Source: Pontiella agarivorans (GTDB taxonomy: Bacteria > Verrucomicrobiota > Kiritimatiellia > Kiritimatiellales > Pontiellaceae). From it: DNA of 64,000 bases. Numbering within the stretch: position 1 is the first letter of the stretch; each line of letters opens with the position of its first letter. The notes under the pieces are model-generated. The model had not been told where the DNA came from. It saw only the letters and a program-made list of their open reading frames with translations, and did no database searches. Shown here one piece after another: positions 6,988-27,454 of the stretch. The position numbers and the translations under genes were made by a program. The stretch covers positions 124,001-188,000 of the forward strand of contig NZ_JARVCO010000010.1 of NCBI RefSeq assembly GCF_034531395.1, in the 5' to 3' direction.

Positions 6988-7014
6988 GGGAATATAGTGC
7001 TTAAAATTGGGATG

Positions 7015-7049
7015 ATATTCAAGGCTGTCGTTTCCCGGTTTTGAAATAT
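7015..7049. promoter_or_regulatory. Candidate operator between the AraC regulator and xylB
   Basis: An imperfect inverted repeat: ATATTCAA at 7015-7022 and TTGAAATAT at 7041-7049, one base of difference in arm length, centres about 27 bp apart. It sits in the only intergenic space shared by the regulator and xylB. It could be an AraC-type site, but such sites are usually direct repeats. Confidence 0.35.
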
Positions 7050-7079
7050 TAACTCTAGATTTTTAGCGAGGAGACAAGA

Positions 7080-8555: not shown

Positions 8556-8569
8556 CGGAGGTACGAGAA

Positions 8570-9898
8570 ATGAGTATTGTGACGGGGAACAAAGAATATT
8601 TTCCAGGCATTGGAAAAATTGCCTATGAAGGCAAAGACAGCGATAATCCGCTGGCGTTTAAATGGTACGATGCAAATGCCGTAGTCGGTGGAAAAACGAT
8701 GAAAGAAACACTGCGTTTTGCCATTGCGTATTGGCATTCATTTTGCGGCGGCGGTGCGGATCCGTTTGGTTCGGCCACACGTCCGATGCCGTGGAACGAG
8801 GGTTCCGATGTTGAAACCCGCGCGAAAAATAAAATGGATGCCGCCTTTGAATTCATTACCAAAATCGATGCTGAATATTTCTGCTTCCACGATTTTGATT
8901 TGGTTGAAGAAGGGGCGGATCTGGCGGAATCCACGAAACGTCTGGGCATGATCACCGATTATGCAAAAGAAAAAATGGATGCTTCCAGTGTTAAACTGCT
9001 GTGGGGTACGGCAAATCTTTTTTCCAACCCGCGCTATATGAACGGTGCAGGTACCAACCCTGATTTCAGTACGGTGGCCTATGCCGGTGCCCAGCTGAAG
9101 AATGCCATTGATGCCACGATTAAACTCGGCGGAGAAAACTATGTTTTCTGGGGCGGCCGTGAAGGGTATATGAGTCTGCTTAATACCAATATGAAGCAGG
9201 AACTTGATAACTTCGGGAACTTCCTGCGCATGGCGCGCGATTATGCCCGTGCTCAGGGATTCAAGGGTAATTTCTTCATCGAACCCAAACCGGCGGAACC
9301 GAGCAAACATCAGTATGATGTGGATGCAGCCACTGTGATCGGTTTCCTGAATGCTCAGGGATTGGCGGACGACTTTAAACTGAATATCGAAGTCAACCAT
9401 GCCACACTGGCACAGCACACCTTCCAGCACGAACTGCAGGTTGCGGCCGACAACGGCATGCTCGGCAGCATTGATGCCAACCGCGGGGATTATCAGAACG
9501 GCTGGGATACGGATGAGTTCCCGGTGAATATCCGTGAAACCGTTGAGGCCATGCTCGTGATTCTTGAATCGGGCGGTCTGCAGGGCGGGGGTACAAACTT
9601 CGATGCCAAAATCCGTCGTAATTCCACCGATCTTGAAGATCTCTTCATTGCGCATATCAGCGGCATGGACACATTCGCCCGGGCGCTGGTGATTGCCGAC
9701 AGAATCCTCAAAGAATCACCCTACCGCAAATTGCGCGCTGACCGGTATGCCAGTTTCGGCGAAGGTAAAGGGGCAGAGTTTGCGGCCGGTAAGCTGACTC
9801 TGGAAGAACTTGCGGGAATTGCCGCTGAAAGCGGTGAGCCGGTGCAGATCAGCGGAAAGCAGGAACGCTACGAAGCGCTGATCAACCAGTACATTTAA
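8570..9898 (+). CDS. xylA: Xylose isomerase, class II
   Basis: A 442-residue TIM-barrel enzyme that converts D-xylose to D-xylulose using two divalent metal ions. Visible signatures are the active-site His in [19 protein letters not shown], the metal-binding [12 protein letters not shown], and [17 protein letters not shown]. The length and N-terminus (ITGNKEYF-like) fit class II enzymes. A CGGAGG ribosome-binding site precedes the start. It forms an operon with xylB and ends at a terminator. A palindrome copy occupies 8601-8615 near the start, encoding Pro-Gly-Ile-Gly. Confidence 0.97.
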
Positions 9899-9913
9899 TA
9901 GATGTAAGGTGAG

Positions 9914-9941
9914 GGGGATACCGATGGGGTATCCCCTTTTT
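9914..9941 (+). terminator. Terminator after xylA
   Basis: An 8-bp perfect stem (GGGGATAC with GTATCCCC), a 7-nt loop and five T. It separates xylBA from the downstream symporter, which then needs read-through or its own promoter. Confidence 0.88.
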
Positions 9942-9989
9942 GTATACGTGGGGTGATGTCGGTAAAACAGCATAAGGAGAGCGTGGAAT

Positions 9990-11396
9990 ATGAGCGAGAA
10001 ACAAGAAGACACGACAAACATGGGCTTTGTCATTCTGATCAGTATTGTGGCCACAATAGGAGGATTTCTTTTCGGCTTTGACAGTGGAGTGATTAATGGA
10101 ACCGTTGATGGTCTTTCCGAAACCTTTGGTTCCAATGCGGCCGGCACCGGTTTTGCGGTGGCTTCAATGTTGATCGGCTGTGCCATTGGTGCATTTTTTG
10201 CCGGAACGCTGGCCGATAAAGCCGGCCGGCGCGCCATCCTGATTGTTTCGGCGGTCTTTTTTTCAGTCAGTGCCTGGGGCTCCGGCATTGCGGACGGTAA
10301 GTCTGAGTTTATTGTTTACCGTCTGCTCGGCGGTTTGGCCGTTGGGGCGGCTTCGGTTCTGGCACCGGCTTATATTTCGGAAGTTGCGCCGGCAAAATAC
10401 CGGGGAACTCTTTCGTCGATTCAGCAGATTGCCATTATCTCCGGCCTGTTTATCGCTGCATTGAGTAACTATATGATTGCGAAATCGGCCGGCGGCTCCA
10501 CGTTGGAATTTGCCTGGGGATTCGATGCCTGGCGCTGGATGTTCTGGGTTGAGCTTGTTCCGGCGATTACATTTTTCTTTGCGCTACTGGCGATTCCGGA
10601 GAGCCCGCGTTTTCTCGTGGCATCGGGTAAAAAGGAAAAATCGATCGGTGTTCTTACCCGCCTGATGGGGGCCGAAAGTGCAGCGTCCAAATATGCAGAG
10701 ATCAATAATTCTCTCGCAGGCGATCACCACAAGCCGAGCCTGAAAGATATTGTGGATAAAAAACACGGGGTGCGTCCGATTGTCTGGGTGGGGATCGGCC
10801 TGGCGACATTCCAGCAGTTTGTCGGTATCAATGTTGTGTTCTACTACAGCGCGGTGGTCTGGCAGGCCGCCGGATTTTCGGAAGGGCAGGCCCTGTTAAC
10901 TACGGTGATAACCAATGCATTCAGTATTGCCGCCTGCGTCGGGGCAACGGCACTGGTTGATCGAGTCGGCCGCAAACCGCTGCTGCTGGTCGGTTCCATC
11001 GGCATGTCGATTTCGCTGGCGATTATTGCGGTGGTTTTTGTGACTGCCGGGGTTGTGGATGGAAAGCTTGCGTTGACGTCGACCACGGGGCCGGTTGCGC
11101 TGGTATCACTGATTGTCTACACCGTGTTCTTCAATATTTCGTGGGGGCCCATCATGTGGGTCATGCTCGGCGAAATGTTCCCGAACCAGATTCGCGGTTC
11201 CGGCCTGGCGATTGCCGGACTGGCCCAGTGGGGATCCAACTTTCTGGTTACCTGGACGTTTCCGATGCTGCTGGCGGGAATCGGACTGGGCGGTGCTTAC
11301 GGCATCTATACTGCCGGTGCGGTGATATCAGTATTCTTCGTGATGAAGTTCGTGCAGGAAACCAAAGGAGTTGAACTCGAAGATATGAAAGGCTGA
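9990..11396 (+). CDS. MFS sugar/H+ symporter, probably xylose
   Basis: A 468-residue 12-helix transporter of the sugar-porter (GLUT/XylE) family. Family motifs are all present: GFDSGVINGT in helix 1, GRR after helix 2, PESPRFLV before the central loop, QQFVGINVVFYYS in helix 7, VDRVGRKPLL between helices 8 and 9, and a PNQIRGSGLA piece near helix 10. It lies 91 bp after xylA on the same strand, past a terminator. Xylose is inferred from this position; glucose or arabinose would fit the sequence equally. Translation is supported by AAGGAG upstream of the ATG. Confidence 0.92.
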   Translation: MSEKQEDTTNMGFVILISIVATIGGFLFGFDSGVINGTVDGLSETFGSNAAGTGFAVASMLIGCAIGAFFAGTLADKAGRRAILIVSAVFFSVSAWGSGIADGKSEFIVYRLLGGLAVGAASVLAPAYISEVAPAKYRGTLSSIQQIAIISGLFIAALSNYMIAKSAGGSTLEFAWGFDAWRWMFWVELVPAITFFFALLAIPESPRFLVASGKKEKSIGVLTRLMGAESAASKYAEINNSLAGDHHKPSLKDIVDKKHGVRPIVWVGIGLATFQQFVGINVVFYYSAVVWQAAGFSEGQALLTTVITNAFSIAACVGATALVDRVGRKPLLLVGSIGMSISLAIIAVVFVTAGVVDGKLALTSTTGPVALVSLIVYTVFFNISWGPIMWVMLGEMFPNQIRGSGLAIAGLAQWGSNFLVTWTFPMLLAGIGLGGAYGIYTAGAVISVFFVMKFVQETKGVELEDMKG

Positions 11397-11427: not shown

Positions 11428-11454
11428 AAACGCACCGGAATTCCGGTGCGTTTT
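11428..11454. terminator. Bidirectional terminator between convergent genes
   Basis: A 10-bp perfect inverted repeat, CGCACCGGAA with TTCCGGTGCG, flanked by AAA and TTTT. It serves the symporter gene and the convergent membrane protein gene. Confidence 0.88.
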
Positions 11455-12992
11455 CAGTTTCGGGTTTCAAGGAATGCGTCCCAGAGGGCGCGATTGATAT
11501 GAAGACTGAGCAGGGTATCCTGACGGAGGGAATAGAATTCCGTGAGAAACGTCTCCGGATTGCTTTCAAAATCCGGGCCGGCAATGACGAGTGCGGGTTG
11601 GATTCCCCCCGGGACTTCAGTGGCATCGGTCCAGTATCCCACGTTTGGAAAGCGGCGAAGATAGAACGGAAGCGGCCAGGTGGAATCCGGTGAGGCAATG
11701 ACCTGTACGTATATATTTTCCCCGTCGGCGCTGACCTTCGCAATTTCCCCGATTCGGTTAACCAGGTTTTTAAAGTCCGGTGCGGTATGGGCATAGACAT
11801 AGGGATTACGGTAATCCGCAGCATAGCGGAAGACCGTGCTTTCGGCCAGACGGTAGGTTTTATAAACCGGCCAGGCGAGCAGCAGCAGAATCGTGGTTTT
11901 CACAAAACGAACTGCACTTGGAATGGTGATTTTATCTGCACAGCAGTTGAGTATGGAAGCCACCGCAATACCGGCGAGCAGGATCCACCCGTGAAGGAAA
12001 GAGAGGATGCACCAAGGTGTTTTGTATGAAATAACGGAATAGGCCAGCGTCAGCAGGAGTGTGTAGAACATGATGAACCGTGCGAGGCCGAGATCGATCT
12101 CCTTCGGCAGTTTTTTCCGAAGGATGGAAATGCAGCCGAGCAGGCCGAGGCCGAAGAACAGTCCTTCGCTCCATCGTGGGCCGCCGTCGAATCGGTAATT
12201 CGTCAGCATGCGTAAATAAAAATTCCAGGGATGTACATGTTCGGTGTCTACTCCGGTTCCGCGCGCAAAGTAGCCTTTGAAGGCCAGAACCGCATCAACG
12301 GGGCCCTCCATGTTGGTGAAGAAAGAGGAAAACAGCAGAAAGGCAATGAAGACGGCCGCGATCAGTCCCAGTGCGATATTTTTAAGCGGGAAGTGGGTGA
12401 TATGTGCCAGCAGGGCGCAAAGTACAGCGGCTCCGAAGATCGCGGCATAAGAGATAATCGCGGTTTCTTTGGTGGCAAACATTAAACCGAGTGAAAGTCC
12501 TGCGACAACAGCCCAGAAGCGGGAACCGATCCGGATCGAGCGCCATCCTGCGGCAATGGCCATGAATGTGAAGAAAACGAGCAGAATTTCCTGAATATAA
12601 AAGCGGCTGTAATACGCCATGCCTGGCGATACCGCTGTGAACAAGGCTGCGGCACAGACTGCGGTTGCACCGAGTCCGTTCCGAAGGAGTGGAATGGCGA
12701 GAATCAATAGAATTCCGAAAAATACCGGTACAGCGCGATAGGTGGTTTCTGTGGAATCCGCAAAGGTTTCAACACCGGTTATCCAGCTGACCGGGAGCGT
12801 GAGATAATAAAGTGATGGGCCGTGATGGTCGTCGGCATCGTATTCATAGGTTCCCTCTTCGAGGAGAATACCGAAACGGTAGGCCTGATTGGCCTCATCA
12901 TGATGCAGCGGCCGATCGGACAGGTGGGGAATACGCAGCGTCAATCCTGCAAGAACGAGCAGCAGCATGGCGATGGGAAACACTTTATTCAT
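11454..12992 (-). CDS. Polytopic membrane glycosyltransferase-like protein (TIGR03663/Agl23-like)
   Basis: About 512 residues and 10-12 membrane helices, resembling the GT39/Agl23-like family of lipid-linked-sugar transferases. The first periplasmic loop carries the typical acidic motif DRPLHHDEANQAYR, and the next DDHHGPSLYYLTLP; such an Asp/Glu pair is catalytic in GT-C enzymes. The C-terminal 130 residues are soluble and outside the membrane. The frame is open back to 13061, but that extension crosses the terminator of the neighbouring gene and a palindrome copy, so the ATG at 12992 (MNKVFPIAM, start of the first helix) is chosen. The substrate is unknown. Confidence 0.8.
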   Translation of the reverse strand: MNKVFPIAMLLLVLAGLTLRIPHLSDRPLHHDEANQAYRFGILLEEGTYEYDADDHHGPSLYYLTLPVSWITGVETFADSTETTYRAVPVFFGILLILAIPLLRNGLGATAVCAAALFTAVSPGMAYYSRFYIQEILLVFFTFMAIAAGWRSIRIGSRFWAVVAGLSLGLMFATKETAIISYAAIFGAAVLCALLAHITHFPLKNIALGLIAAVFIAFLLFSSFFTNMEGPVDAVLAFKGYFARGTGVDTEHVHPWNFYLRMLTNYRFDGGPRWSEGLFFGLGLLGCISILRKKLPKEIDLGLARFIMFYTLLLTLAYSVISYKTPWCILSFLHGWILLAGIAVASILNCCADKITIPSAVRFVKTTILLLLAWPVYKTYRLAESTVFRYAADYRNPYVYAHTAPDFKNLVNRIGEIAKVSADGENIYVQVIASPDSTWPLPFYLRRFPNVGYWTDATEVPGGIQPALVIAGPDFESNPETFLTEFYSLRQDTLLSLHINRALWDAFLETRN

Positions 12993-13011
12993 GCGGGTGA
13001 GGATAACCCTT

Positions 13012-13026
13012 TTCCAATGATTGGAA
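13012..13026. repeat. Intergenic copy of the TTCCARNNNYTGGAA palindrome
   Basis: Exact match, extended by one T/A pair on each side (TTTCCA-N5-TGGAAA). It lies between the membrane glycosyltransferase start and the terminator of the discoidin-like gene. Confidence 0.85.
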
Positions 13027-13027
13027 A

Positions 13028-13058
13028 TAAAAAACCCGGAGGCGGCCGCCCCCGGGTT
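13028..13058 (-). terminator. Terminator of the discoidin-like gene
   Basis: A strong GC-rich hairpin with AACCCGG and CCGGGTT arms and a self-complementary GGCGGCCGCC centre. It is followed on the minus strand by TTTTATT. It lies 24 bp after the stop of the gene at 13082. Confidence 0.88.
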
Positions 13059-13081
13059 CACATTCAGAAATACAGTACGGT

Positions 13082-13738
<657 letters not shown>

Positions 13739-13825: not shown

Positions 13826-14626
13826 TCAGACACCGATTTTTATTAACGTTTCATCAGGTTCGACGACATATGCCGTAATTTCCGGGTGTTTTTTGCAGAG
13901 TGCTTTGATCTTTTCATTTTCCATCATCATGAATGCCGTGGAAAGTGCATCCGCTTTTGCGGCTGATGGATGAATGGCCCAGGCCGCCAGATGACGCTGC
14001 GCCGGCTTTCCGGTTTTCGGATTGATGATGTGAGCACCTTTAACTTCGGTTCCGGAGCCGCTCAGGGCCCGGTTTTTAAGCGTGACTTCAGAGAGACCGA
14101 CCTTTTCTCCCCAGGGCCCGCCGACGCCCAGTGTCCATTCCCGGCCGAGTGCAAGTGCTGTACTTCCGCCCCCGTTGAGCACCACCTCATTCATCTCCCA
14201 GTCTTCAAGAATGGTGGTCACATCGTCCAGCGCATAGCCTTTGCCCAGCCCGCCGAGATCGAGAGACGCTTTTCCGCCAGCCTTCCAGCCGACCCTGAAA
14301 TTTTCCCGGTCAATTTCCAGCCATTGGAAACCGGAACCCAGTGTTGGATCAAAAAGTCCGCCGGTCGACCGATACGCCCACATGGCGGTTTCCAGACAAT
14401 CGATTACTTCGGAACTTACGCGAATGGATTCGCCGGCCTTCAGCAGATTAATCTGTCCGATATCACTGCCGGGATTATATTTGCTCAGCAGGTTTTCAAG
14501 CTGATCAATGCGGCGGAATATCGCACCGGCAGTCTGGCGCGCATATTCCCGGTTTTCTGAATCAATGATCACCTCGAACGAGGTGCTCATTGATTCGTGG
14601 GAAAAATGGTGGACGGTTTCGTTCAT
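13826..14626 (-). CDS. apbE: FAD:protein FMN transferase, ApbE family, without visible signal peptide
   Basis: A 266-residue enzyme of the family that links FMN from FAD to Thr or Ser of flavoproteins such as RnfG, NqrB/C and other FMN_bind proteins. Seen: MSTSFEVII start strand, GGLFDPTLG, LGGLGKGYALD, ALSGSGTE, HIINPKTGKPA and ADALSTAFMMM, which carries the Mg2+-binding Asp. The N-terminus goes straight into the fold, so it looks cytoplasmic, whereas many ApbE proteins are exported lipoproteins. It follows the DUF1080 gene by 5 bp and should be co-transcribed. No FMN-acceptor protein is recognised in the window. A palindrome copy (14315-14329) encodes Phe-Gln-Trp-Leu-Glu. Confidence 0.9.
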   Translation of the reverse strand: MNETVHHFSHESMSTSFEVIIDSENREYARQTAGAIFRRIDQLENLLSKYNPGSDIGQINLLKAGESIRVSSEVIDCLETAMWAYRSTGGLFDPTLGSGFQWLEIDRENFRVGWKAGGKASLDLGGLGKGYALDDVTTILEDWEMNEVVLNGGGSTALALGREWTLGVGGPWGEKVGLSEVTLKNRALSGSGTEVKGAHIINPKTGKPAQRHLAAWAIHPSAAKADALSTAFMMMENEKIKALCKKHPEITAYVVEPDETLIKIGV

Positions 14627-14631
14627 CGGTT

Positions 14632-15435
14632 TTAAAGCTCTCGCACCCAGATATTCCGGTAGCGGATCGGGTTGTTGTGGTCCTGCAGCAGGAGCGGTCC
14701 TTTTTCCGGGTGGGGGATGTATTTCGGCAGTTTCTTATAGGTTGAAAGTCCGAGGAATTCAGTGTTGTGCTGAACTACCACACCATTGTGGATTACCGTG
14801 GCTGCTGCAGGGGATATCACCTTGTCACCGTCAAACCGCGGTGCCCGGAATATAATGTCGTAGGTCTGCCATTCACCGGCAGGGCGGCAGGCATTGGCCA
14901 GTGCAGGATGCTGACCGTAGAGTGCTGCGGTCATACCGTCGGCATAGGAGGTGTTTTCATAGCAGTCGAGTACCTGAATTTCGTATTTACCCATAATGAA
15001 AACGCCACTGTTTCCACGGCTTTGGCTTTTTTTACTCAGATCGTTCGGGCTGTTCGGTGCCATCCATTCAAGATGAATCTGGCAGTCGCCGAACTGCTTT
15101 TTACTGATCAGACTGCCGGTGCCGTTGATTTCCATATATCCGTCCTGAACCTTCCAAAGTGCTTCCCCTGTAGGGTTGTAGCGCTTCTTTTTATTGGTGC
15201 TCACGGTGCCGACCCATTCGGTCAGATCAGTGCCGTCAAACAGCACATAGGCATCTGATGGCGCCAAAGCGGCGGTTTTCCCCGGCGTGACCACCGGTGG
15301 AAGAGGGCGGTTGGCATCATGCACACGATAACCGTCCGGAAGGAAAGGGTTGTTTGCATGCGGATTTTTTTTTCCGGCAGCGAATACACTGACTGCGGCT
15401 GCAAGCACCGTGAAGGCAAGGATCGTTTTTTTCAT
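14632..15435 (-). CDS. Secreted DUF1080 (3-keto-disaccharide hydrolase-like) protein
   Basis: A 267-residue exported protein with a signal peptide (about 1-19, ending VFA) and one DUF1080/PF06439 concanavalin-like domain. Typical pieces are YVLFDGTDLTEWVG, WKVQDGYMEINGTGSLISKK, DCQIHLEWMAP, NSGVFIMGKYEIQVLD and PLLLQDHNNPIRYRNIWVREL. Known members cleave 3-keto-glycosides or act as 3-ketoglycoside lyases. CGGAGAT precedes the start. It is the first gene of a pair with ApbE. Its place beside Gfo/Idh/MocA oxidoreductases supports a role in 3-keto-sugar chemistry in the periplasm; the substrate is unknown. Confidence 0.9.
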   Translation of the reverse strand: MKKTILAFTVLAAAVSVFAAGKKNPHANNPFLPDGYRVHDANRPLPPVVTPGKTAALAPSDAYVLFDGTDLTEWVGTVSTNKKKRYNPTGEALWKVQDGYMEINGTGSLISKKQFGDCQIHLEWMAPNSPNDLSKKSQSRGNSGVFIMGKYEIQVLDCYENTSYADGMTAALYGQHPALANACRPAGEWQTYDIIFRAPRFDGDKVISPAAATVIHNGVVVQHNTEFLGLSTYKKLPKYIPHPEKGPLLLQDHNNPIRYRNIWVREL

Positions 15436-15450
15436 TTTTTATCTCCGATA

Positions 15451-15490
15451 AAAAAACGCCCGGGAAATCGGATACCGATTTACCGGGCGG
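15451..15490 (-). terminator. Terminator after the multihaem cytochrome gene
   Basis: A hairpin with CGCCCGG and CCGGGCG outer arms and an ATCGG/CCGAT inner stem with a small mismatch, followed by T on the minus strand. It lies 13 bp past the cytochrome stop. Confidence 0.8.
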
Positions 15491-15502
15491 AATACTTCAG
15501 GG

Positions 15503-18109
15503 TTAATGGCTGCTTTTTTTTGCGCAGATGCAGCCCATGACGGCGGCAATAAGGCTCACCACAGCGGCGGAACGATGCACAACAATGGCGGTGTGCTGTC
15601 CGTGTGTTCCGAGGATCGGGAACATGGCCAGCAGTACGCTGAGGATCAGCACAATACCGCTGATCAACAGCACCCAGAACCAGAGTCCGCCGCTCTTCGC
15701 GCGGACCACAGCATATACCACCAGTGCGACGGCATAGAAGGCGCCGAATCCGGTATGGCTCAGCAGCGGGAAGCCGCCCAGCGGATACGAAACCGGCCAG
15801 CCGAACAGGAAGCCGGTCACTGCCAGTCCCAGCATACAGACCATCAGCACGATTTTCACCGGGCGTGTGTTGATCTCTTTTTCATCTGTGGTGTTGATCA
15901 GCTTATAAATCAGCGGCAGACCTGCAGCCAGTGCAATCAGAACCAGCAGCAGTGAAAGGTTGCTCATGATGCATTTGAACAAAGACCGCACTTTAAAGGA
16001 GCTGCCGAACAGTTTATTGAAACCGGCACTCACTTGCTGGAATTCATGCATCGGAACCGCTTTCGCGCTGTCGGTCAACAGGGGGCCGGTGGCCGTTACC
16101 GTACCGAACAGGAAGGAGGAATCTTCCGCATGACATTCTGTACAGGACTTTGCACCGAGCGACTGCGCCGTACCCCGCACATCGTGACCCAGCGGCCAGG
16201 ACACCGGCTCAGCCGATTCATGATCGGAATCCACAAGCGTATCGCCGGAAAGATCAAATTTCCGACCATTGGAAATATAGGAAGAGCCGTTGCCCAGCTT
16301 CTTGAGCATCTTCACAACCTGCTCTTCATTGAAGGCTTTATCGGTACCGACAATATCGGTCACGGCTTTTTCCACAAACGGATTTACCAGTTTTTTACCG
16401 TCCTTGGTATACCAGCCGTCGACCAGCGCGGTATTGGTTCCCACCAGCCAGCCATCCTGCATTTCGAACTGTTTTCCTTTGGAGGCGAGGATGATTTCAA
16501 GAGGCTCGAAAGCCTTCATAATCCCCAGAACCCGTTCTTCGGCATCATAATCCAGCTGTTCGGCATTGACGTCGAATTCAGGAATGGTGGAGACGATGTT
16601 GCTGGGAGTTTTCCAGGCCCATGTAACCGTCAGGTCGGTCTGTTCCAGAAGGTCCAGCCCGCCGTCGGCATTCTGCGCATAAACCTTACCTTCGGCAATA
16701 TACACAGGTTCACCAATCGGAAACGGTGTGGCATCATCAATACTGCCCCAGATTGCCAAGGTACCGGCAACCTGTTCCGCAGTGTCCAGAATGCCTTCAG
16801 CAGCTTCTGCGATAACATCTTCAGGCAGGGGATTACCTTCGGCATCGGCCCAGAACGCCGGCCACATCATACGGCGGGGTTCAATCTTGCCTTCGTCGTT
16901 CCGGACATACACCGGTTCCACAATAAACGGAGATTCGGTATACCACTGCGCCCGGCCGTAAATGCCGAGTTTGTTGGCGCGAGACGTACGGATCAGCTGA
17001 GGTTCTTCCGCCGGTTTCAGACCGGAGTGGCAGGCGGTGCAGGTCAGCTCTTCGAAGTGAACCGGAGGAAGCCCTTTATGATAGGCCACCGGAGCACCGG
17101 CCTGACCGGCAATCATGCCTTCTTCGGTATGGCAGGCCGCACAGCTCATCGTTTCCGTGGTTCCGCGCAGCATCTGGTGATCTTCACCGTTCCGGTGACA
17201 ATCCACGCAGGACAAACCGGCTGCTGCATGCACATCGCCGGGAACATCCATACGGGATGCGGTGACCGGATGCGTGGAGTGGCACTGCACGCAGTTGCGG
17301 TCCTGCGGCCGTCCGATGTCGAACCACATCCGATGTTTGGAATCGAACAGGGTTTCGTCAAAATCCGCGGAAGGCGGAACGCGGTAGACTTTATCGTCCG
17401 GGCTGCCGCCCATATACATATTCCACCATTCCGGCATGCGCGAGGCCATGCCGCCCACTTCGGCCATGCCCGAAGCCGCTGTTGAAGCCCAGCGGAAGTT
17501 TTCGCGGGCAATCTGTTTCGACCATTCTGTCATGTCCTGACGGTGCGAATTGTTGTGGCACGCCAGACAGTTCATTTCCAGCCCGCCGGAAATCTCCCAG
17601 CGCGCATCCGGATCGGCCAGCTTATCCTCCGGATCGCTGATCGATCCGCCGGGCAGGTGGCTGCCGAACTGTTTCGTGAATTCCCAGGCCGAAAGATTCA
17701 TGCGTTCGGCCGGAACCTGAACACCGATGGTTTCATCGACCACAATCCAGGGTTCCGTGGTGCGGCCCTCGCCAGCCCCTTTAAAATGCGAACCGCCATG
17801 AATTTCTTCATAGTCGTGGCACGCACCGCACGTCATCTTCGATGAAAACGGCAGGTTTTCCGGCAGGGAGGTGTTGATTTTCTGGCCATCTTCCGAAAAG
17901 AGCGGAATGCGATGTACGGGCGTAGTACGTGAGCCGTCGAAATGGGAAGCACTGACCGAAACGGCCATGCTTAATGCCAGTGCGGTTCCGAGCAATTGCC
18001 GATTGCCGATTGCTGATTGCCGATTGGATTGCGGGGTAAAAGCAGCGCTATTCAATCGGAAACCAGAAATCTTAGATCGGAAATCCGAAAAAAGATTTAT
18101 TTTTTTCAT
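15503..18109 (-). CDS. Seven-haem c-type cytochrome fused to a five-helix membrane domain
   Basis: An 868-residue protein with seven CxxCH haem-attachment motifs, cysteines near 94, 181, 273, 301, 323, 357 and 656. The haem part should be periplasmic. A C-terminal module (about 715-862) has five hydrophobic helices, with histidines in LLSHTGFG, GTHGQHTA and VVHRSA placed like the haem ligands of cytochrome b561-type proteins. This suggests an electron path between quinones and a periplasmic partner. A long haem-free stretch (about 400-640) separates the sixth and seventh motifs. The start overlaps the upstream Gfo/Idh/MocA stop by 4 bp (ATGA). The 38 residues before the hydrophobic export signal are low-complexity and come from a heptanucleotide repeat, so the true start could be internal. 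The exact enzyme is not recognised. Confidence 0.85.
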   Translation of the reverse strand: MKKINLFSDFRSKISGFRLNSAAFTPQSNRQSAIGNRQLLGTALALSMAVSVSASHFDGSRTTPVHRIPLFSEDGQKINTSLPENLPFSSKMTCGACHDYEEIHGGSHFKGAGEGRTTEPWIVVDETIGVQVPAERMNLSAWEFTKQFGSHLPGGSISDPEDKLADPDARWEISGGLEMNCLACHNNSHRQDMTEWSKQIARENFRWASTAASGMAEVGGMASRMPEWWNMYMGGSPDDKVYRVPPSADFDETLFDSKHRMWFDIGRPQDRNCVQCHSTHPVTASRMDVPGDVHAAAGLSCVDCHRNGEDHQMLRGTTETMSCAACHTEEGMIAGQAGAPVAYHKGLPPVHFEELTCTACHSGLKPAEEPQLIRTSRANKLGIYGRAQWYTESPFIVEPVYVRNDEGKIEPRRMMWPAFWADAEGNPLPEDVIAEAAEGILDTAEQVAGTLAIWGSIDDATPFPIGEPVYIAEGKVYAQNADGGLDLLEQTDLTVTWAWKTPSNIVSTIPEFDVNAEQLDYDAEERVLGIMKAFEPLEIILASKGKQFEMQDGWLVGTNTALVDGWYTKDGKKLVNPFVEKAVTDIVGTDKAFNEEQVVKMLKKLGNGSSYISNGRKFDLSGDTLVDSDHESAEPVSWPLGHDVRGTAQSLGAKSCTECHAEDSSFLFGTVTATGPLLTDSAKAVPMHEFQQVSAGFNKLFGSSFKVRSLFKCIMSNLSLLLVLIALAAGLPLIYKLINTTDEKEINTRPVKIVLMVCMLGLAVTGFLFGWPVSYPLGGFPLLSHTGFGAFYAVALVVYAVVRAKSGGLWFWVLLISGIVLILSVLLAMFPILGTHGQHTAIVVHRSAAVVSLIAAVMGCICAKKSSH
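17995..18029. repeat. Tandem heptanucleotide repeat at the cytochrome 5' end
   Basis: Four consecutive ATTGCCG units on the plus strand (one with a T for C), followed by a degenerate fifth. It lies within the first 40 codons of the cytochrome gene. Seven is not a multiple of three, so a copy-number change would shift the reading frame. Confidence 0.75.
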
Positions 18110-19446
18110 ACGTGAAAGTCCGATTTTTTGAATTCAATTTTCTGGCTGGTTGCGACGGCCTTGTTTACCGACAAAACGGCAACAGCGGTTTCGTAACCTT
18201 TTTCCGCAGGGCAGTTCAGTTCGGTTCCGTAGCGGATGGCATTGAAGAAGTTTTCCAGATGCGGCTGATGGGCCGGTTTGGAAAGATCGACCGGAAGCGG
18301 CCATCCGGTGGCTGCTTCCGTCACCCGGACGTCAACCGCTTTATTTTTTGTAGCGGTCTTTTTAATGGCGGTCGGTTTGGCTTTGATCAGTCCTTTTGCC
18401 GCGAGGGCCTCCCACTGGGCTTCCGGGGCATGCGCTTCGCGGAATACCGCGTTGCCCTGAGCCGGAACTTCGGCGATTTCAAGGTACCCGTTGGTGCCGC
18501 GGAAGGCCTCGGAGAATCCGCCGCGTCCGGTGGTGGTCTGCGTTTCATAGAAAGCGCGGGCTGTGCCGTTCGGGGTTTCAAATTCATAAATGGCCATGAC
18601 ATTGTCGTACCATTCGCGGTGGGAATAAAAATCATTACCGCCCGAAGCGATGACTGATTTTGCATTGGTTTCCCAAACCCATTCGAAAATATCAATCTGG
18701 TGAGAGCCGAGGTCGACAATCGGACCCCCGCCGTACTTCTTGTACCAGCGCCAGTTACGGAACTCCATCATGGAGTTATAACCAAATTGGTCCAGAACTT
18801 CTGCCGGAACCGGAAATTTGGCGGGATAGCCGATATCATCGGCTTTTGCACGGTTCCACTGTGCCGTTGCCGTGGTCACCTGGCCGAGCAGTTTTTCCTC
18901 GAGAATCAGTTTGTCGATGGCGTGCAGATAACGCGGGTTGGAGCGACGCTGATGGCCGATCTGAAGCAGCTGGCCGGTGGCTCTCTGTGTTTTTACCATC
19001 GTGGCGGCTTTTTCCAGCGAGTTCGACATCTCTTTTTCGCAATACACATGCAGACCGGCCTCCATGCACGCATTGGCATGTTCGGCATGCATCCAGTCCG
19101 GAGAGGCCACAACGACGGCATCGAGCTCATCCTTATGATTGGCCAGCATCTCCTTGTAATCTACATAGCTTTTCGGCATTTCACGCTGCTGACTGTACAC
19201 ATAACGGGTGCCGTAGCGCAGGTTGTATTTTTCCCAGATGTCGCACACCGCTTTGATGCGGATGCCCGGAATTCGCACGCAGGACTGCATCAGGATCTGG
19301 CCCTGAGCCCCGGCGCCGATAAAGGCGATATTCAGCTGATCTGGGTTCTTTCGGGCCGAAAGCTCCGCATTTTCCACCGCGCGCGCCTTCAGCGACGCCA
19401 ATACGGTTCCGGCCGCAGCCGTGTGCATAAATTGAGTTCTATTCAT
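18106..19446 (-). CDS. Gfo/Idh/MocA-family oxidoreductase, probably exported
   Basis: About 446 residues. An N-terminal NRTQFMHTAAAGTVLASL stretch resembles a Tat-type leader, but only one of the twin arginines is kept. The Rossmann fold starts at LNIAFIGAGAQGQ (about 40), and the family Lys is in HVYCEKEMSN. A C-terminal alpha/beta domain includes WRWYKKYGGGPIVDLGSHQID. These enzymes oxidise or epimerise sugars with NAD(P). Three ATG codons follow GGGG; the third (19446) has the best spacing. The stop overlaps the cytochrome start by 4 bp, so the two are translationally coupled, which links a sugar dehydrogenase to a haem protein. Confidence 0.88.
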   Translation of the reverse strand: MNRTQFMHTAAAGTVLASLKARAVENAELSARKNPDQLNIAFIGAGAQGQILMQSCVRIPGIRIKAVCDIWEKYNLRYGTRYVYSQQREMPKSYVDYKEMLANHKDELDAVVVASPDWMHAEHANACMEAGLHVYCEKEMSNSLEKAATMVKTQRATGQLLQIGHQRRSNPRYLHAIDKLILEEKLLGQVTTATAQWNRAKADDIGYPAKFPVPAEVLDQFGYNSMMEFRNWRWYKKYGGGPIVDLGSHQIDIFEWVWETNAKSVIASGGNDFYSHREWYDNVMAIYEFETPNGTARAFYETQTTTGRGGFSEAFRGTNGYLEIAEVPAQGNAVFREAHAPEAQWEALAAKGLIKAKPTAIKKTATKNKAVDVRVTEAATGWPLPVDLSKPAHQPHLENFFNAIRYGTELNCPAEKGYETAVAVLSVNKAVATSQKIEFKKSDFHV

Positions 19447-19668
19447 CATCATCCCCCGACTAATTTGTGTATTAAATTAACAAATTGCTTTTCTACTCGG
19501 TCTAATTCTCTTCATCAACAAAAAAAACTCCGCTCTCCCGTAGAGAGAAAGACAAAAGAGTGTTTCTTGTATTTATGTAGGCCAATCTATACTTACTGCC
19601 AGCGTAAGTCTTGTAGAATCAACGCCGGGACTTGTACAAAACGGACAATCAACAGGATGAATAAAAAC

Positions 19669-19720: not shown

Positions 19721-21694
19721 CTAGTTTTTTGCGGTTTCGATTGATTGTTGAGCATACGCCTTCATCCGCTCATTATCCGTCAGCTCCACATAATGTTCGA
19801 GGTGGGGAATCGCCATTTTTTTAAATTTCCAGTGCCAGGTCTGTTCAATCATCGCCTGTCCGGCTTCGTCGACCACTTCGGGATTATCGATGTACGGTGC
19901 AATAAACTGAATTACGTCCTCACTTTTGTACCGTTTCACCGTCGAGAGAATCATACGGATTTCCTCGGGCCGGGAGGCAAGCTCCGCCGCATTTTTACAC
20001 ATCGGAAGCGTTTCCGCCTCAGTATTAGAGGTTCCGGCCAGGCGAATATAACCGCGAAGAGCGAGAAGCTGATATTTATCATCATCCACATTTTTCGCGA
20101 GTTCCAGCAGCTGGTCCGCCACATCGGGATTCGGCCAGTTACACAGTCCGCGGATCGCAGCATCGCGCGCCAGCGGATCTTTACTCGTCATTGCCTGCTC
20201 AAGCAGGCCGCGCGCGTTTTCCCCTCCGATGCTTCCTAATGAGCGGATAACGGCATAGAGCACTTCTCCGTCCGCTTTATCATAGGCGGCGATCAGCGTT
20301 GCCGCGCAGGCGTCGGGGTCCGGCATACGCTGGGCGGCCTGGGCAATCGATTTTTCCAACGCCTGGATTTTTTTCTTATTATCCGTTTTCAACAGCAGAT
20401 CGGCATAAGTACTGAACGTATCGACTTGAATCAGATTGGCCATGCCGCTGATGGCCGCCGCGCAGGTTCGGCTCCAGTCTTTGGAAGCCCATTCCGCAAA
20501 TTCGGGAAGCGCATCTTCGGCCTGGCGGTCGGAAAGACAGTTGATATATTGAACTTTCACCTTTTCGTCTTTGGCACTTTTCAGTGCATCAAGAATCGCG
20601 GCATCAAGCCCCTCGGCATTTGCGGCACACAAAGCATCGAAAGCGGTCTGATCGGATGTCGCCGCCGGAATCAGCTGAAAAGCCGCTGCTCCGCCGATCT
20701 GACCCAGCGCATAGACCGCCGCTTTTCGAACTTCATCGTTTTCCCGCTGCATTTTTTCTGCGGCAAAAGCTTCGCCGGAAGCCTCGCGGCGAACCGCCAG
20801 TTCATTAAGCACAAGAAGTTCAATTTCCGGATCTTCCGATTCAACCGCTGTCAGCGATTCAGTCGGAAGCTGAGGAAGCAGTGAAAACGCCGTTTTCCGA
20901 AGTTCGGAATCTTCACGTTCCAAAATCTGGAAAATGGCGTCGGCGGCGTTGGCCGGATCGGCCTTCACCATAGCACCGAGTGCTGCGGAACGGATGGCCG
21001 GATCTTTATCAGTCAGCATTTCGGCATATACCTTTTTATCGGTATTCGCCGAAAAGAGTCCGAAAAAGGAGGGTTTTACCCCCTCAACGGCGGACAGCTG
21101 CGCTTTTTTCCAAACCTTGGAAAACTGCGGGGCGACCTCGGCCTGAGCCAACGCTTTAACCGCTTTTTTACCGCCGATGTTTCCAAGGGCGGTGATGGCG
21201 GTAAACTGGAGGTCGGCATTTTCGGATTCCAGGAACGGAGCAATTTCAGCAATCGCTTCCGGGGTTCCGCGGGCACTGAGGGTGCTGATGATGCCGGCCT
21301 GAAGTTCCGGAGAGGCTTCGGGCAGGGCGTTCAGTAGGGCCTTATCGGCAGCATCGTCTTCCAAGCCCTGGAAGACCATGCGGACAAATGCGGAGAGATC
21401 CGCATTCAGCAGTTCGTTTTTCAGCACCGGAACGCAGGCTTCAGAGGCGCAATGGCGAAGCAGGCGGCAGGTGTACTGTTTGCCTTCAAGCGTGGTTTCC
21501 GGGGATTGAAAAATTGCAAGCAGCTCATTTTCCAGGGTTTGGAAATTTTCCGGTTCGGTTCCGAAAACGAGGGTTTCGATGGGGCGGCGTATTTTCTGGT
21601 CCTGATCCGTTGTCAGGGTTTTCAGCGCCTCAAGCTGAGCGCCGGCAACGGATGCGGCAAAAACGAAGCAGAGGGTGGATAATCGTAAATTCAT
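19721..21694 (-). CDS. Secreted HEAT-repeat protein
   Basis: A 657-residue protein with a signal peptide (about 1-19, ending AGA) and an all-helical body of degenerate HEAT repeats of about 30-40 residues. Clear units include NADLQFTAITALGNIGGKKAVKALAQ, DPAIRSAALGAM, NDEVRKAAVYALGQIGG and DPLARDAAIRGL. Such proteins are protein-binding scaffolds and are common in PVC bacteria beside ThuA and oxidoreductase genes. It starts 11 bp after ThuA, with AAGGAT upstream, and is the last gene of a three-gene unit. The gene holds four exact palindromes (20918, 21108, 21359, 21530) and two near-copies, the densest cluster in the window. Confidence 0.88.
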   Translation of the reverse strand: MNLRLSTLCFVFAASVAGAQLEALKTLTTDQDQKIRRPIETLVFGTEPENFQTLENELLAIFQSPETTLEGKQYTCRLLRHCASEACVPVLKNELLNADLSAFVRMVFQGLEDDAADKALLNALPEASPELQAGIISTLSARGTPEAIAEIAPFLESENADLQFTAITALGNIGGKKAVKALAQAEVAPQFSKVWKKAQLSAVEGVKPSFFGLFSANTDKKVYAEMLTDKDPAIRSAALGAMVKADPANAADAIFQILEREDSELRKTAFSLLPQLPTESLTAVESEDPEIELLVLNELAVRREASGEAFAAEKMQRENDEVRKAAVYALGQIGGAAAFQLIPAATSDQTAFDALCAANAEGLDAAILDALKSAKDEKVKVQYINCLSDRQAEDALPEFAEWASKDWSRTCAAAISGMANLIQVDTFSTYADLLLKTDNKKKIQALEKSIAQAAQRMPDPDACAATLIAAYDKADGEVLYAVIRSLGSIGGENARGLLEQAMTSKDPLARDAAIRGLCNWPNPDVADQLLELAKNVDDDKYQLLALRGYIRLAGTSNTEAETLPMCKNAAELASRPEEIRMILSTVKRYKSEDVIQFIAPYIDNPEVVDEAGQAMIEQTWHWKFKKMAIPHLEHYVELTDNERMKAYAQQSIETAKN

Positions 21695-21705
21695 GTGGCG
21701 TATCC

Positions 21706-22587
21706 TTATTTGATTTCGTCCGGAACATCGTAGTCGCCAAGGGCATACTGAATGCCGGCGAGGTAGTGCTGGAGAATTCGGTTGTCCCAGAAGATGTGGT
21801 GGTTGTGGCCCATCGAGCAGTAAAAGACGCGCCCTTTTCCTTCCTGACGCACCCAGGTGACCCCGAAATCGCCATCGGTTCGGGTCACTTTATCCGGTTT
21901 TCCGCCTTTTACCGCTTTTGTGTCCGGGTCCTCCATATCCAGGCTGACAATGACGCGCTGATTATCGCGGGAATAGGGTTCTTTAAACTGATAGATTTCA
22001 TCTTTCACCTTAAAGGATTCACCGTGGAAGCATGCGTTGACGGGATGGTCCGGTTCATTGAGTTTCATCTGAACGGTGCAGCTGGCAGTCCATGGATGGC
22101 CGCAGAAGAGGCCGCCCATCATTTTTGCACCTTCCGACCAGCCGTAGAAATTATCCGTGGCGGCGTGAATGCCGATCATGCCTTTTCCGTCGCGCACAAA
22201 TTTCAGCAGCGCCTGCTGCTGTTCGGGGGTCGGCTTGAGCCGGGTGGTGCTCAGGAACAGAACGGCATCGAACTTTTCCAGATCCGTGTCGTTGAACAGG
22301 TCCAGTTCCCGCGTTTCCTCAATAGTATAGGCCCCGGTCTGTTCGCCCATCAGTCGGATGGCCTCCACGCCAATGGCAATAGAGCCGTGTACAAATCCTT
22401 CGCAACGCGTAACAACCAGAATCTTCCGGGCTTTTTTCGGTTTGGCCGGCGCTTTTTCCGGAAGAGCTTTTTTTACATTGGCGATGTGTTCCGGTTTGGC
22501 GGGGCCTTGCAGATTTTTATTTTTCTGAGCCGCTGCTCCGCCGGTAAGTGCTGCAGCAAGAATGAAGGTGATCCATATTTTCATCAT
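21706..22587 (-). CDS. Secreted ThuA-like (trehalose utilisation) protein
   Basis: A 293-residue exported protein. The signal peptide is about residues 1-20, followed by a Lys/Pro-rich linker to about 55, then the ThuA fold (a class I glutamine-amidotransferase-like domain). Seen: KILVVTRCEGFVHGSI, FDAVLFLSTT, GKGMIGIHAATDNFY, and GRVFYCSMGHNHHIFWDN. ThuA proteins act in disaccharide catabolism with Gfo/Idh/MocA partners; the chemistry is not settled. AGGAA precedes the start. It lies in a unit Gfo-ThuA-HEAT with gaps of 12 and 11 bp. Confidence 0.9.
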   Translation of the reverse strand: MMKIWITFILAAALTGGAAAQKNKNLQGPAKPEHIANVKKALPEKAPAKPKKARKILVVTRCEGFVHGSIAIGVEAIRLMGEQTGAYTIEETRELDLFNDTDLEKFDAVLFLSTTRLKPTPEQQQALLKFVRDGKGMIGIHAATDNFYGWSEGAKMMGGLFCGHPWTASCTVQMKLNEPDHPVNACFHGESFKVKDEIYQFKEPYSRDNQRVIVSLDMEDPDTKAVKGGKPDKVTRTDGDFGVTWVRQEGKGRVFYCSMGHNHHIFWDNRILQHYLAGIQYALGDYDVPDEIK

Positions 22588-22599
22588 GAAATTCCTTTT

Positions 22600-23886
22600 T
22601 TAAAGAACCCAGGGTTCGCGGAATGCCCGGGTGAGCATGCCGTTGGCGACGGGATCGTTGGTGATGATTTCGTGTTCCGGATCCCATTTGAGGGTGCGGC
22701 CGGTGTAGATCGCGAGTTCGCCAAGCAGACCGGCACTGATGGAACGATGTCCGGTTTCGGCCGGACAGATGCACGGCCGGCGGCTTTTCACGCAGTCGAT
22801 AAAGTTTCGGTGATGATCCCGGCTTTCATAGAGGCGAATGCCATTACTCGGAATGGGATCTTTCAGCATGCTTGGATCGCTGGCTTCGATTTTTTCACGG
22901 GTAACCAGTATTTCGCCCTCTTCGCCGACAAAGCGGACGCCGGGGCCGTATTTGCTGGTGACTTTGATCAGGGAGCCGTCGGCATATTTCAGATCGAAAT
23001 CGAAGGAAGTAATCACATTAAACAGATCACTGTCGGCAAAGCCGCCTGTGCCGCTGATTTCCACCGGTCCGGTTTCATCAAGCCCGAGTGCCCAGTGGGA
23101 AATGTCGATATTATGTCCGGCCCAGTCGGTAATCTGCCCGCCCGAAAAATCGCGCAGCCAGCGCCAATTCCAATGCATGGAACCGCCCCGGCCGAGATCA
23201 CGGTGCGGCTGCATGGGTGCCGGGCCGAGCCACATTTCATAGTCCAGTTCTTTCGGAACCGGAACTGTTTTTGCAGAACCGCCGCCGTAGCCGCCGGGCA
23301 GGCGGGCCTCGGCAAATTTGATTTTCCCGAGCCGTCCGTTGCGCACCAGTTCACACGCCATGCGGAACCGTCCATCGGACCGCTGTTGTGAACCGGTCTG
23401 CCAGATTACGCCGTTGCGTTCCACGGCTTCGACAATGGCACGCCCTTCCGGAATCGTGCGGGCGAGCGGTTTCTGGCCGTAGATATCTTTTCCGGCATTG
23501 GCTGCCGCCACGCAGATGATGCCGTGCCAATGATCGGGCAGCGCATGGAAGACCGCATCGATATCATCGCGGGCGAGCAGTTCGCGATAGTCGCTATATT
23601 CGGCGCAGTCGGAATTACCGTATTTTGCATCAATGGTCCGTTTTCCGTTTGCGCGGTGACGGGAATCAACATCGCACACGGCGAGCAGCCGGGTGTCGGG
23701 CTGATTGAGCAATCCTTTGAGGTTGCCCATGCCCATGGAGCCGGTGCCGATACCGGCAATGGTGATCGTGTTGCTGGGGGCTGATGCACCAAGCACCGAG
23801 GAGGGGACAATGGCCGGAAATCCGGCGGCCACCCCCGCAAGCGCCGAGGTTTTCAGCAGATTGCGTCTGGAAAGGTTCGGGTTCAT
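22600..23886 (-). CDS. Tat-exported Gfo/Idh/MocA-family oxidoreductase
   Basis: A 428-residue oxidoreductase with a clear Tat leader (SRRNLLK, then a hydrophobic stretch ending SVLGA). The Rossmann domain begins ITIAGIGTGSMGMGN; the active-site region is DIYGQKPLARTI, where the usual Glu-Lys-Pro is Gln-Lys-Pro. The second domain holds WRWLRDFSGGQITDWAGHNIDISHW, typical of the exported subfamily. Export with cofactor bound explains the Tat route. It is the first gene of the Gfo-ThuA-HEAT unit. An exact TTCCA-N5-TGGAA copy is at 23168-23182, the only one breaking the RNNNY spacer rule. Confidence 0.92.
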   Translation of the reverse strand: MNPNLSRRNLLKTSALAGVAAGFPAIVPSSVLGASAPSNTITIAGIGTGSMGMGNLKGLLNQPDTRLLAVCDVDSRHRANGKRTIDAKYGNSDCAEYSDYRELLARDDIDAVFHALPDHWHGIICVAAANAGKDIYGQKPLARTIPEGRAIVEAVERNGVIWQTGSQQRSDGRFRMACELVRNGRLGKIKFAEARLPGGYGGGSAKTVPVPKELDYEMWLGPAPMQPHRDLGRGGSMHWNWRWLRDFSGGQITDWAGHNIDISHWALGLDETGPVEISGTGGFADSDLFNVITSFDFDLKYADGSLIKVTSKYGPGVRFVGEEGEILVTREKIEASDPSMLKDPIPSNGIRLYESRDHHRNFIDCVKSRRPCICPAETGHRSISAGLLGELAIYTGRTLKWDPEHEIITNDPVANGMLTRAFREPWVL

Positions 23887-23950: not shown

Positions 23951-24943
23951 TTAGCTGTCAAAGGCTTCGTCAAACACGCGGTCGGACTTTTCAAAATCCA
24001 CCTTTTTCGTGAACGCGCAGGATTCGGTTCCTCCGGCCACGCGGTCCATTGCGGCGTCTTCCCATTCAATGGAAAGCGGGCCCTTATAATCCTGGGCATT
24101 CAGTGTGCGGATGATGTCTTCAAAGTTCACATCGCCGCGGCCCACACTGCGGAAGTCCCAGCCCCGGCCGGGCGTACCGAAGTTGAGGTGGGAGCCGAGA
24201 ATACCGCTTTCGCCGTCGAGGGTCACTGCCGCGTCCTTCATGTGCACATGGTAGATGCGGTCGGGGAAGGCCTTCAGGAAGCGGACCGGGTCCACGCCCT
24301 GCCAGATCAGATGAGACGGATCGAAGTTAAAGCCGAAGGCTTCGCGGTGACCGATGGCTTCGAGTGCGCGCCGGGCAGTGATGATGTCGAAGGCAATTTC
24401 GGTGGGGTGCACTTCGAGGGCAAACCGAACGCCCTGTTTATCGAACACATCCAGAATCGGATTCCACATTTTGGCAAAATATTTAAAGCCGTCTTCGATC
24501 ATTTTTTCCGAGGCCGGCGGGAACGAATAAAGCATGTGCCAGATCGAGGAACCGGTGAAACCGTTCACGACTTCCACACCCATGTTGGCCGCCGCTTTTG
24601 CGGTATTCTTCATGGTTTTTACCGCCCATTTGCGCTGTCCTTCCGGATCGCCGGCCAGTTCCGCCGGTGCAAACATATCGGAACGGCCGTCGTTATTGAG
24701 GTCGCAGACCAGCTGTCCGGCGAGGTGGTGACTGATGGCATAGCATTCGAGACCGTGGTCTTTCAGCAGTTCGCGTTTTTCCCGGCAGTATTTTTTGGAA
24801 CGCGCGGCTTTATCGACTTCCATATGGTCGCCCCAGCAGGCGAGTTCCAGGCCGTCGAAGCCCATTTTCTTGGCCAGCGGGGCCAGTTCTGCAAGCGGTA
24901 TGTCCGCCCACTGTCCGGTGAATAGGGTTACAGGTCTTCCCAT
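23951..24943 (-). CDS. Sugar phosphate isomerase/epimerase-like TIM barrel
   Basis: A 330-residue cytoplasmic protein of the AP-endonuclease-2-like (xylose-isomerase-like TIM barrel) family. Metal and substrate motifs: [31 protein letters not shown] (Glu and His), [25 protein letters not shown] (His-x-His-x-Lys-Asp), and the late Glu in GPLSIEWED. This fits inosose dehydratase, sugar epimerase or 3-keto-sugar isomerase activities. AAGGAG is 8 bp before the start, and the gap to the upstream Gfo gene is 12 bp. The substrate is unknown. Confidence 0.9.
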
Positions 24944-27306: not shown

Positions 27307-27367
27307 GTTTTTTCTCTCCTTATCCCTTAGCTTCCCCTGAACAGGCACAGTGCCTTTTCGCAATGGT

Positions 27368-27415
27368 TACCCAGAATGCAGGTTACGCAAAGAAGCGTCT
27401 TGTAAATGCTGGGTA
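27368..27415. promoter_or_regulatory. Inverted repeat in the MFS / PAS-AraC intergenic region
   Basis: TACCCAG at 27368-27374 and CTGGGTA at 27409-27415, an exact 7-bp inverted repeat with 34 bp between the arms. It lies between two divergent genes, one encoding a DNA-binding regulator, so it is a candidate operator. Confidence 0.4.
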
Positions 27416-27429
27416 CAGAATTGTATATT
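27400..27429 (+). promoter_or_regulatory. Candidate sigma-70 promoter of the PAS-AraC gene
   Basis: TTGTAA (27400-27405) and TATATT (27424-27429) with an 18-bp spacer, 26 bp before the preferred start codon. The right arm of the inverted repeat lies between the two boxes, consistent with autoregulation. Confidence 0.5.
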
Positions 27430-27454
27430 CTACGCATCCAGTTGGAGTATAATG

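Follow-up and report, generated by a model that had tools for sequence, protein, structure and literature searches.

A membrane-anchored heptahaem cytochrome c encoded beside a Gfo/Idh/MocA oxidoreductase: a candidate electron outlet for glycoside oxidation in Pontiella agarivorans

In a 64,000-nucleotide stretch of the Pontiella agarivorans genome (the window; contig NZ_JARVCO010000010.1, 124001-188000), the gene for a seven-haem c-type cytochrome with a membrane tail (CYT) directly follows the gene for a Gfo/Idh/MocA oxidoreductase (GfoA). That GfoA and CYT form a unit is supported by comparative sequence evidence: gene order is conserved in several phyla, the GfoA proteins concerned belong to a single clade, and CYT and a DoxX-like membrane protein exclude each other. 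The link between a sugar oxidoreductase and the cytochrome drawn in a preliminary description of this DNA is thereby upheld. What might the pair do? With modest confidence, we favor a model in which CYT takes electrons from GfoA to menaquinone in the C3-oxidative breakdown of glycosides. The host is a bacterium that degrades marine polysaccharides. No description of a pairing between a Gfo/Idh/MocA enzyme and a heptahaem cytochrome, or of its exchange for a DoxX-type pairing, was found in the open-access literature.

Both genes belong to one minus-strand cluster that runs, within the 64-kb window, from an MFS transporter gene (starting at 27363) to an Agl23-like gene (ending at 11454). In order, the cluster encodes the MFS transporter (26143-27363; PF07690, 79 bits against a cut-off of 33.4); GfoC, a Gfo/Idh/MocA enzyme without a signal peptide (24956-26116); a xylose-isomerase-like TIM-barrel protein, also without a signal peptide (23951-24943; PF01261, 148 bits), which is a hydratase homologue; GfoB, a further Gfo/Idh/MocA enzyme (22600-23886; TAT_signal_seq, 20.8 bits, cut-off 16.7); a ThuA-like protein (21706-22587; PF06283, 149 bits) and a HEAT-repeat protein (19721-21694; PF13646, 129 bits), each with a signal peptide; GfoA (18106-19452; PF01408, 58 bits, cut-off 24); CYT (15503-18109); a DUF1080 protein of the 3-keto-disaccharide hydrolase family, with a signal peptide (14632-15435; PF06439, 148 bits, cut-off 26.8); a cytosolic ApbE-like FMN transferase (13826-14626; PF02424, 148 bits, cut-off 25.6); F58, an exported discoidin-like protein (13082-13738; PF22633, 34.6 bits, cut-off 27.8); and an Agl23-like GT-C glycosyltransferase (11454-13061; TIGR03663, 183 bits, cut-off 126). 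The oxidoreductase, cytochrome, DUF1080, and FMN transferase genes of the preliminary description are confirmed at the positions given there, and the 4-bp overlap reported there for GfoA and CYT is present as ATGA. A divergent gene for an AraC-type regulator with a PAS domain (27350-28198, plus strand; PF12833, 79.5 bits; PF08448, 67.9 bits) possibly encodes the regulator of the cluster. An adjoining xylose-type operon (6085-11396) consists of an AraC regulator gene on the minus strand and genes for an FGGY kinase, a xylose-isomerase-like protein, and a sugar porter on the plus strand.

How constant is the association of GfoA with CYT? In 35 of the 40 loci that have upstream sequence, CYT is immediately preceded by GfoA, and GfoA-CYT loci occur in Kiritimatiellota, Lentisphaeria, other Verrucomicrobiota, Planctomycetota (Sedimentisphaerales), Aminicenantes, and Acidobacteriota. 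Of the five loci that differ, four are from genomes that encode a same-clade GfoA at another site. In the GfoA tree, the CYT-linked copies form one clade (100/98), together with four unlinked copies from genomes in which CYT is also present elsewhere. All aligned GfoA sequences retain the catalytic Lys, Asp, and His, and the Rossmann NAD-binding domain is present (PF01408). The nearest solved relative is DgpA (7xr9, E 7e-17), and the score against the BT_2158 glycoside 3-dehydrogenase model (NF058561) is 82 bits, with a cut-off of 750. Most GfoA proteins outside Pontiella carry a Tat motif. The Pontiella proteins have lost the twin arginine, RRxF having become NRxQF (NRTQF in the window as well as in every Pontiella relative examined), and the neighboring GfoB retains SRRNLLK. 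Because the motif is degenerate, export of GfoA by the Tat system is unsure in Pontiella. In one genome, G324 (L082:7638-10590), CYT is preceded by a highly divergent Gfo/Idh/MocA gene (PF01408, 32.7 bits), and the CYT-clade GfoA is found on a different contig.

Genomes that have GfoA and lack CYT show what can take its place. A search of 387 Verrucomicrobiota genomes (GfoA relatives defined by E below 1e-110; only the top candidates per genome were scored, so paralogues may be missed) found a GfoA relative in 50 genomes and CYT in 19, counts that are not independent events, as CYT and GfoA came together once or twice. Eighteen of the 50 have CYT and no DoxX-like gene, and 32 are without CYT. 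In 30 of these 32, GfoA is preceded, at a distance of 24-197 bp, by a gene for a DoxX/MauE-like membrane protein (~180 aa). Such a gene was found in none of the 19 CYT genomes. DoxX and MauE scores are just over the curated cut-off in three tested proteins and under it in the others. F58 directly follows GfoA in 29 of the 32 genomes; in 13 CYT genomes, it lies on the same strand 3.4-8 kb downstream of GfoA, with CYT in between. The two types of GfoA separate in the tree and differ in a motif, which is EKE in every CYT-type protein and EKM or EKL in every DoxX-type protein. The exchange extends to the genus itself: the Pontiella genome G004 (L102:3765-8840) has no CYT and instead has the order DoxX-GfoA-F58-Agl23-ApbE, a version that, judging from the GfoA tree, was probably acquired from another family. 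The DoxX/MauE proteins hold the place of CYT beside GfoA, yet they are small, have no haem c motifs, and are unrelated to CYT. The two appear to be interchangeable redox modules serving a single dehydrogenase. A haem-copper oxidase is encoded in 31 of 38 DoxX-type genomes and in 0 of 12 CYT-type genomes outside Pontiella and G099; this pattern fits CYT being the anaerobic version, although kinship confounds the comparison.

The constant partners of the cluster are ApbE, F58, and the Agl23-like gene, not DUF1080. The three follow CYT in the majority of sufficiently long loci, out to Aminicenantes and Acidobacteriota, and the Agl23-like gene is retained both in Aminicenantes (200 bits) and in DoxX-type clusters (163 bits). 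Pontiella sulfatireligans F21(T) also has the core of the cluster (L026). DUF1080 occupies the position after CYT only in the window, in the relative nearest to it (L002), and in a single additional Pontiella lineage (L009/L022); some other Pontiella lineages have a gene for an AP_endonuc_2 protein at this position. DUF1080 was therefore rejected as a fixed partner of CYT. Of the gene order in the preliminary description, the GfoA-CYT part holds widely, but the DUF1080 part is a local feature. The intervening genes vary in other ways. For example, a PD-(D/E)XK_3 nuclease-like gene lies between CYT and ApbE in two Pontiella lineages (L019:12610-13413 and L005:4142-4855), and at L073:11842-15378 ApbE and F58 are separated by genes for a UbiA prenyltransferase, a polyprenyl synthase, and a transporter. 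The genome encodes ApbE a second time elsewhere (310 bits), and the copy in the cluster is the divergent one. No FMN_bind protein is encoded within the cluster; elsewhere in the genome there are three FMN_bind and three NQR2/RnfD matches. F58 can be tied to extracytosolic electron transfer through genome G156 (L104:3792-6583), where one gene joins an F58-like domain to an FMN-binding protein of the Rnf type that carries a TGAS motif. The fusion gene adjoins an NqrB/RnfD-like gene and a second F58, making this a third redox setting for F58, and five more genomes of the same family as G156 have two or more F58 matches. That the SxGx[ST] loop of F58 might be a flavin site is only an idea.

A further gene of the cluster strengthens the 3-keto-glycoside setting proposed in the preliminary description. 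The TIM-barrel protein (23951-24943) matches PDB 8ro4, "2-hydroxy-3-keto-glucal hydratase," over nearly its full length (E 1.8e-53) and, as its homologue, is a candidate for this activity; Aminicenantes clusters encode a TIM-barrel protein 57-60% identical to that of the window. GfoC, whose solved relatives are 3v5n (E 7e-109) and 6a3f (E 4e-29), is probably a 3-keto-sugar reductase or dehydrogenase. It scores 128 bits against the levoglucosan dehydrogenase model, under the cut-off of 650, and a homologue with 40-42% identity adjoins GfoA in Aminicenantes. GfoB is predicted to be a Tat-exported enzyme related to glycoside 3-dehydrogenase (PDB 8tdf, "Dehydrogenase," E 2e-28), with 151 bits against the BT_2158 family, under the cut-off of 750. 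The non-hydrolytic glycoside pathway has four steps: oxidation, elimination, hydration, and reduction (PMC13273386). The hydratase homologue, the kinship of GfoA with DgpA, DUF1080, and the MFS transporter together provide candidates for all four, the hydratase being a clear homologue. An electron outlet of the CYT type was not found in the open literature on that pathway.

Might the redox module serve glycan modification rather than catabolism? GfoA, F58, the Agl23-like transferase, and ApbE could modify an envelope glycan or glycoprotein, with the redox module serving that modification, and it is consistent with this that F58 and the Agl23-like GT-C gene accompany GfoA whether CYT is present or not, DUF1080 and lyase genes being variable. 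We nevertheless consider it unlikely, given that the hydratase and GfoC genes stay beside GfoA from Pontiella to Aminicenantes and that the window also encodes an MFS transporter and an AraC-type regulator.

Gfo/Idh/MocA dehydrogenases are known as NAD(P) enzymes. In the model of glycoside breakdown that we favor, GfoA, probably with tightly bound NAD, would oxidise a glycoside to its 3-keto form outside the cytoplasm. Its electrons would pass, probably via a flavin or F58, to the seven-haem domain of CYT and from there to the b-type membrane tail, where menaquinone would be reduced. The 3-keto-glycoside would be cleaved by a lyase or hydrolase, which may be DUF1080 here and perhaps the AP_endonuc_2 protein in some relatives; the product would be imported by the MFS transporter, hydrated inside the cell by the 2-hydroxy-3-keto-glucal hydratase homologue, and then reduced by GfoC. 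In relatives without CYT, the DoxX-like membrane protein would replace it. We infer the direction of electron flow, the substrate, the bound NAD, the quinone acceptor, and the roles of F58, ApbE, and the Agl23-like protein. Besides the genomic evidence for the GfoA-CYT link and the haem and histidine pattern of CYT, further observations support the model. First, Pontiella species make menaquinones (PMC7356697), and the G382 cluster includes UbiA and polyprenyl synthase genes. Second, the tail of CYT is kin to cytochrome b561, and a PF01292 gene follows a planctomycete CYT that has no tail. Third, a hydratase homologue is encoded in the cluster, and DgpA is the nearest solved relative of GfoA. 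Fourth, F58 is tied to FMN-binding proteins by the G156 fusion, and GfoA outside Pontiella mostly carries a Tat motif. The model is weakened by the degenerate Tat motif of Pontiella GfoA, by the need for a mediator in hydride transfer from NADH to haem, and by the absence of an [ST]GA[ST] motif from CYT.

Electrons might also run the other way, from menaquinol through CYT to GfoA, such that periplasmic keto-sugars are reduced and serve as an electron sink for a fermenting cell. Gfo/Idh/MocA enzymes are reversible, and both COX1 and cytochrome bd are missing from many CYT genomes. The description of Pontiella growth as fermentative (PMC7356697) likewise favors this reversal and weakens the model of flow toward menaquinone. 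However, the hydratase, DUF1080, and MFS genes fit a degradation that starts with oxidation, a candidate cytosolic reductase is already present in GfoC, and the DoxX version occurs mostly in oxidase-bearing genomes. Reverse flow therefore seems to us distinctly improbable.

The membrane tail of CYT (15512-15958, minus strand, from hydropathy) has the five hydrophobic C-terminal helices noted in the preliminary description (aa 720-738, 751-769, 786-804, 811-829, and 842-860). By sequence it is related to cytochrome b561. PF01292 ranks first among the weak family matches of 10 of 13 CYT tails, and two tail histidines, His785 and His845, are conserved (24/25 and 24/24) and are probably the ligands of a haem b. 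The likeness to cytochrome b561 lies in this conserved histidine pair; the tail differs in having one such pair only, in being fused to a haem c domain, and in its score, the tail in the window reaching 12.9 bits against PF01292, under the cut-off of 30.1. The tail is encoded by a separate gene in Aminicenantes and Acidobacteriota, and a gene in L083 matches the CYT tail profile with 98% probability. In L039, the tail-less planctomycete CYT is followed by a full PF01292 gene (56 bits); homology between that b561 gene and the CYT tail was not found. A low-confidence model of the tail gave Z scores of 9-12 to b-type cytochromes and matched unrelated helical bundles too; the b-type matches fall inside the helical-bundle background.

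CYT contains seven CXXCH motifs and no more, in agreement with the seven haems of the preliminary description: aa 94-98 (17816-17830), 181-185 (17555-17569), 273-277 (17279-17293), 301-305 (17195-17209), 323-327 (17129-17143), 357-361 (17027-17041), and 656-660 (16130-16144), all on the minus strand. Among 38 CYT relatives, all seven are retained in every complete sequence, and there are exactly seven additional invariant histidines in the soluble part (66, 108, 294, 311, 344, 351, and 642). The simplest reading is that CYT carries seven bis-His haems c and one haem b, in which case a free ligand site would be absent and CYT would be an electron carrier. Many non-haem residues of the six-haem part are invariant too, which counts against the carrier reading because such conservation could indicate an enzyme. 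The preliminary description could name no family for the cytochrome, and profile searches bear this out: CYT falls far under the curated cut-off of every named multihaem family, including those of the nitrogen and sulfur cycles. For example, it scores 22 bits against octahaem tetrathionate reductase (TIGR04315, cut-off 375; CYT has seven haem motifs and the family needs eight), 23 bits against NrfB (cut-off 166.6), 33 bits against ExtN (cut-off 200), and 20 bits against decahaem SO1788 (cut-off 209), and it is also under the curated cut-off for OmcA/MtrC. Matches to PF14537 (41.4 bits, cut-off 25) and PF14522 (37.8 bits, cut-off 24.8) cover aa 291-365 only; this cytochrome c3/c7-like match is a general haem-spacing domain. 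A convincing solved relative was not found, the CYT profile retrieving only NrfA from the PDB, around two haem motifs. AlphaFold models were of low confidence (mean pLDDT 53 for whole CYT and 34.5 for the haem domain alone), and a Foldseek search gave no match below E 0.001. The ApbE target motif, [ST]GA[ST] followed by x-[ST], is absent from CYT and all CYT relatives examined. A short repeat, caatcggcaatcagcaatcggcaatcggcaat, at 17990-18040, lies between the CYT start codon and the signal peptide and encodes NRQSAIGNRQ; in many relatives, CYT starts ~35-45 residues later than in the window. That CYT is an independent nitrogen, sulfur, or metal reductase that merely shares an operon with sugar genes, as the enzyme-like conservation and the weak local matches to ExtN, NrfB, octahaem, and NrfA models might suggest, is very unlikely, since every named reductase model scores far under its cut-off, the histidine count leaves no apparent free ligand site, and CYT is inherited together with GfoA, its place being taken elsewhere by a DoxX-like protein that lacks haem.

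The GfoA-CYT pair has partial parallels in known systems. BT_2158/BT_2159 and DgpA-type 3-dehydrogenases belong to the same superfamily as GfoA, but GfoA has EKE where the canonical motif is EKP. DgpA is a glycoside 3-oxidoreductase with bound NAD(H) that needs an external oxidant, which is 3-oxo-glucose (PMC11239390) rather than a cytochrome. The LacABC lactose 3-dehydrogenase of Caulobacter crescentus acts with a DUF1080 hydrolase (PMC9007349). The likeness is the periplasmic oxidation of a glycoside to a 3-keto-glycoside, coupled to the envelope, near a DUF1080 hydrolase. Whereas LacA is a GMC-type flavoenzyme, the dehydrogenase here is an NAD-type Gfo/Idh/MocA protein, paired with a heptahaem cytochrome c that ends in a membrane tail. 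No cluster protein belongs to the GMC family, so the cluster may work like LacABC but is no member of it. Flavinylation-associated membrane cytochromes and Rnf/Nqr-like systems (PMC11334425) share with the cluster an ApbE and a membrane redox protein, and the G156 fusion of an F58-like domain to an FMN-binding Rnf-type subunit is a further likeness. They differ in that the cluster has no FMN_bind and CYT has no [ST]GA[ST] and joins its membrane part to a heptahaem c domain. A broader and tentative idea, which we regard as doubtful, is that a Gfo/Idh/MocA enzyme, F58, and ApbE together make up an autonomous sugar dehydrogenase outside the cytoplasm, connected to the respiratory chain via exchangeable membrane modules (heptahaem c/b cytochrome, DoxX-like, or NqrB/RnfD-like), F58 being a novel subunit for docking or for carrying flavin.

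What would electron transfer from GfoA to menaquinone through CYT mean for these organisms? The best-studied periplasmic NAD-type glycoside 3-dehydrogenases are reoxidised by keto-sugars. If the model is true, a dedicated cytochrome, replaced by a DoxX-like protein in relatives, would be a concrete answer to how such enzymes dispose of their electrons. It would also assign a role to DoxX-like proteins, the F58 family, and orphan ApbE copies, and it would define where glycan breakdown feeds into respiration in anaerobes that degrade marine polysaccharides.
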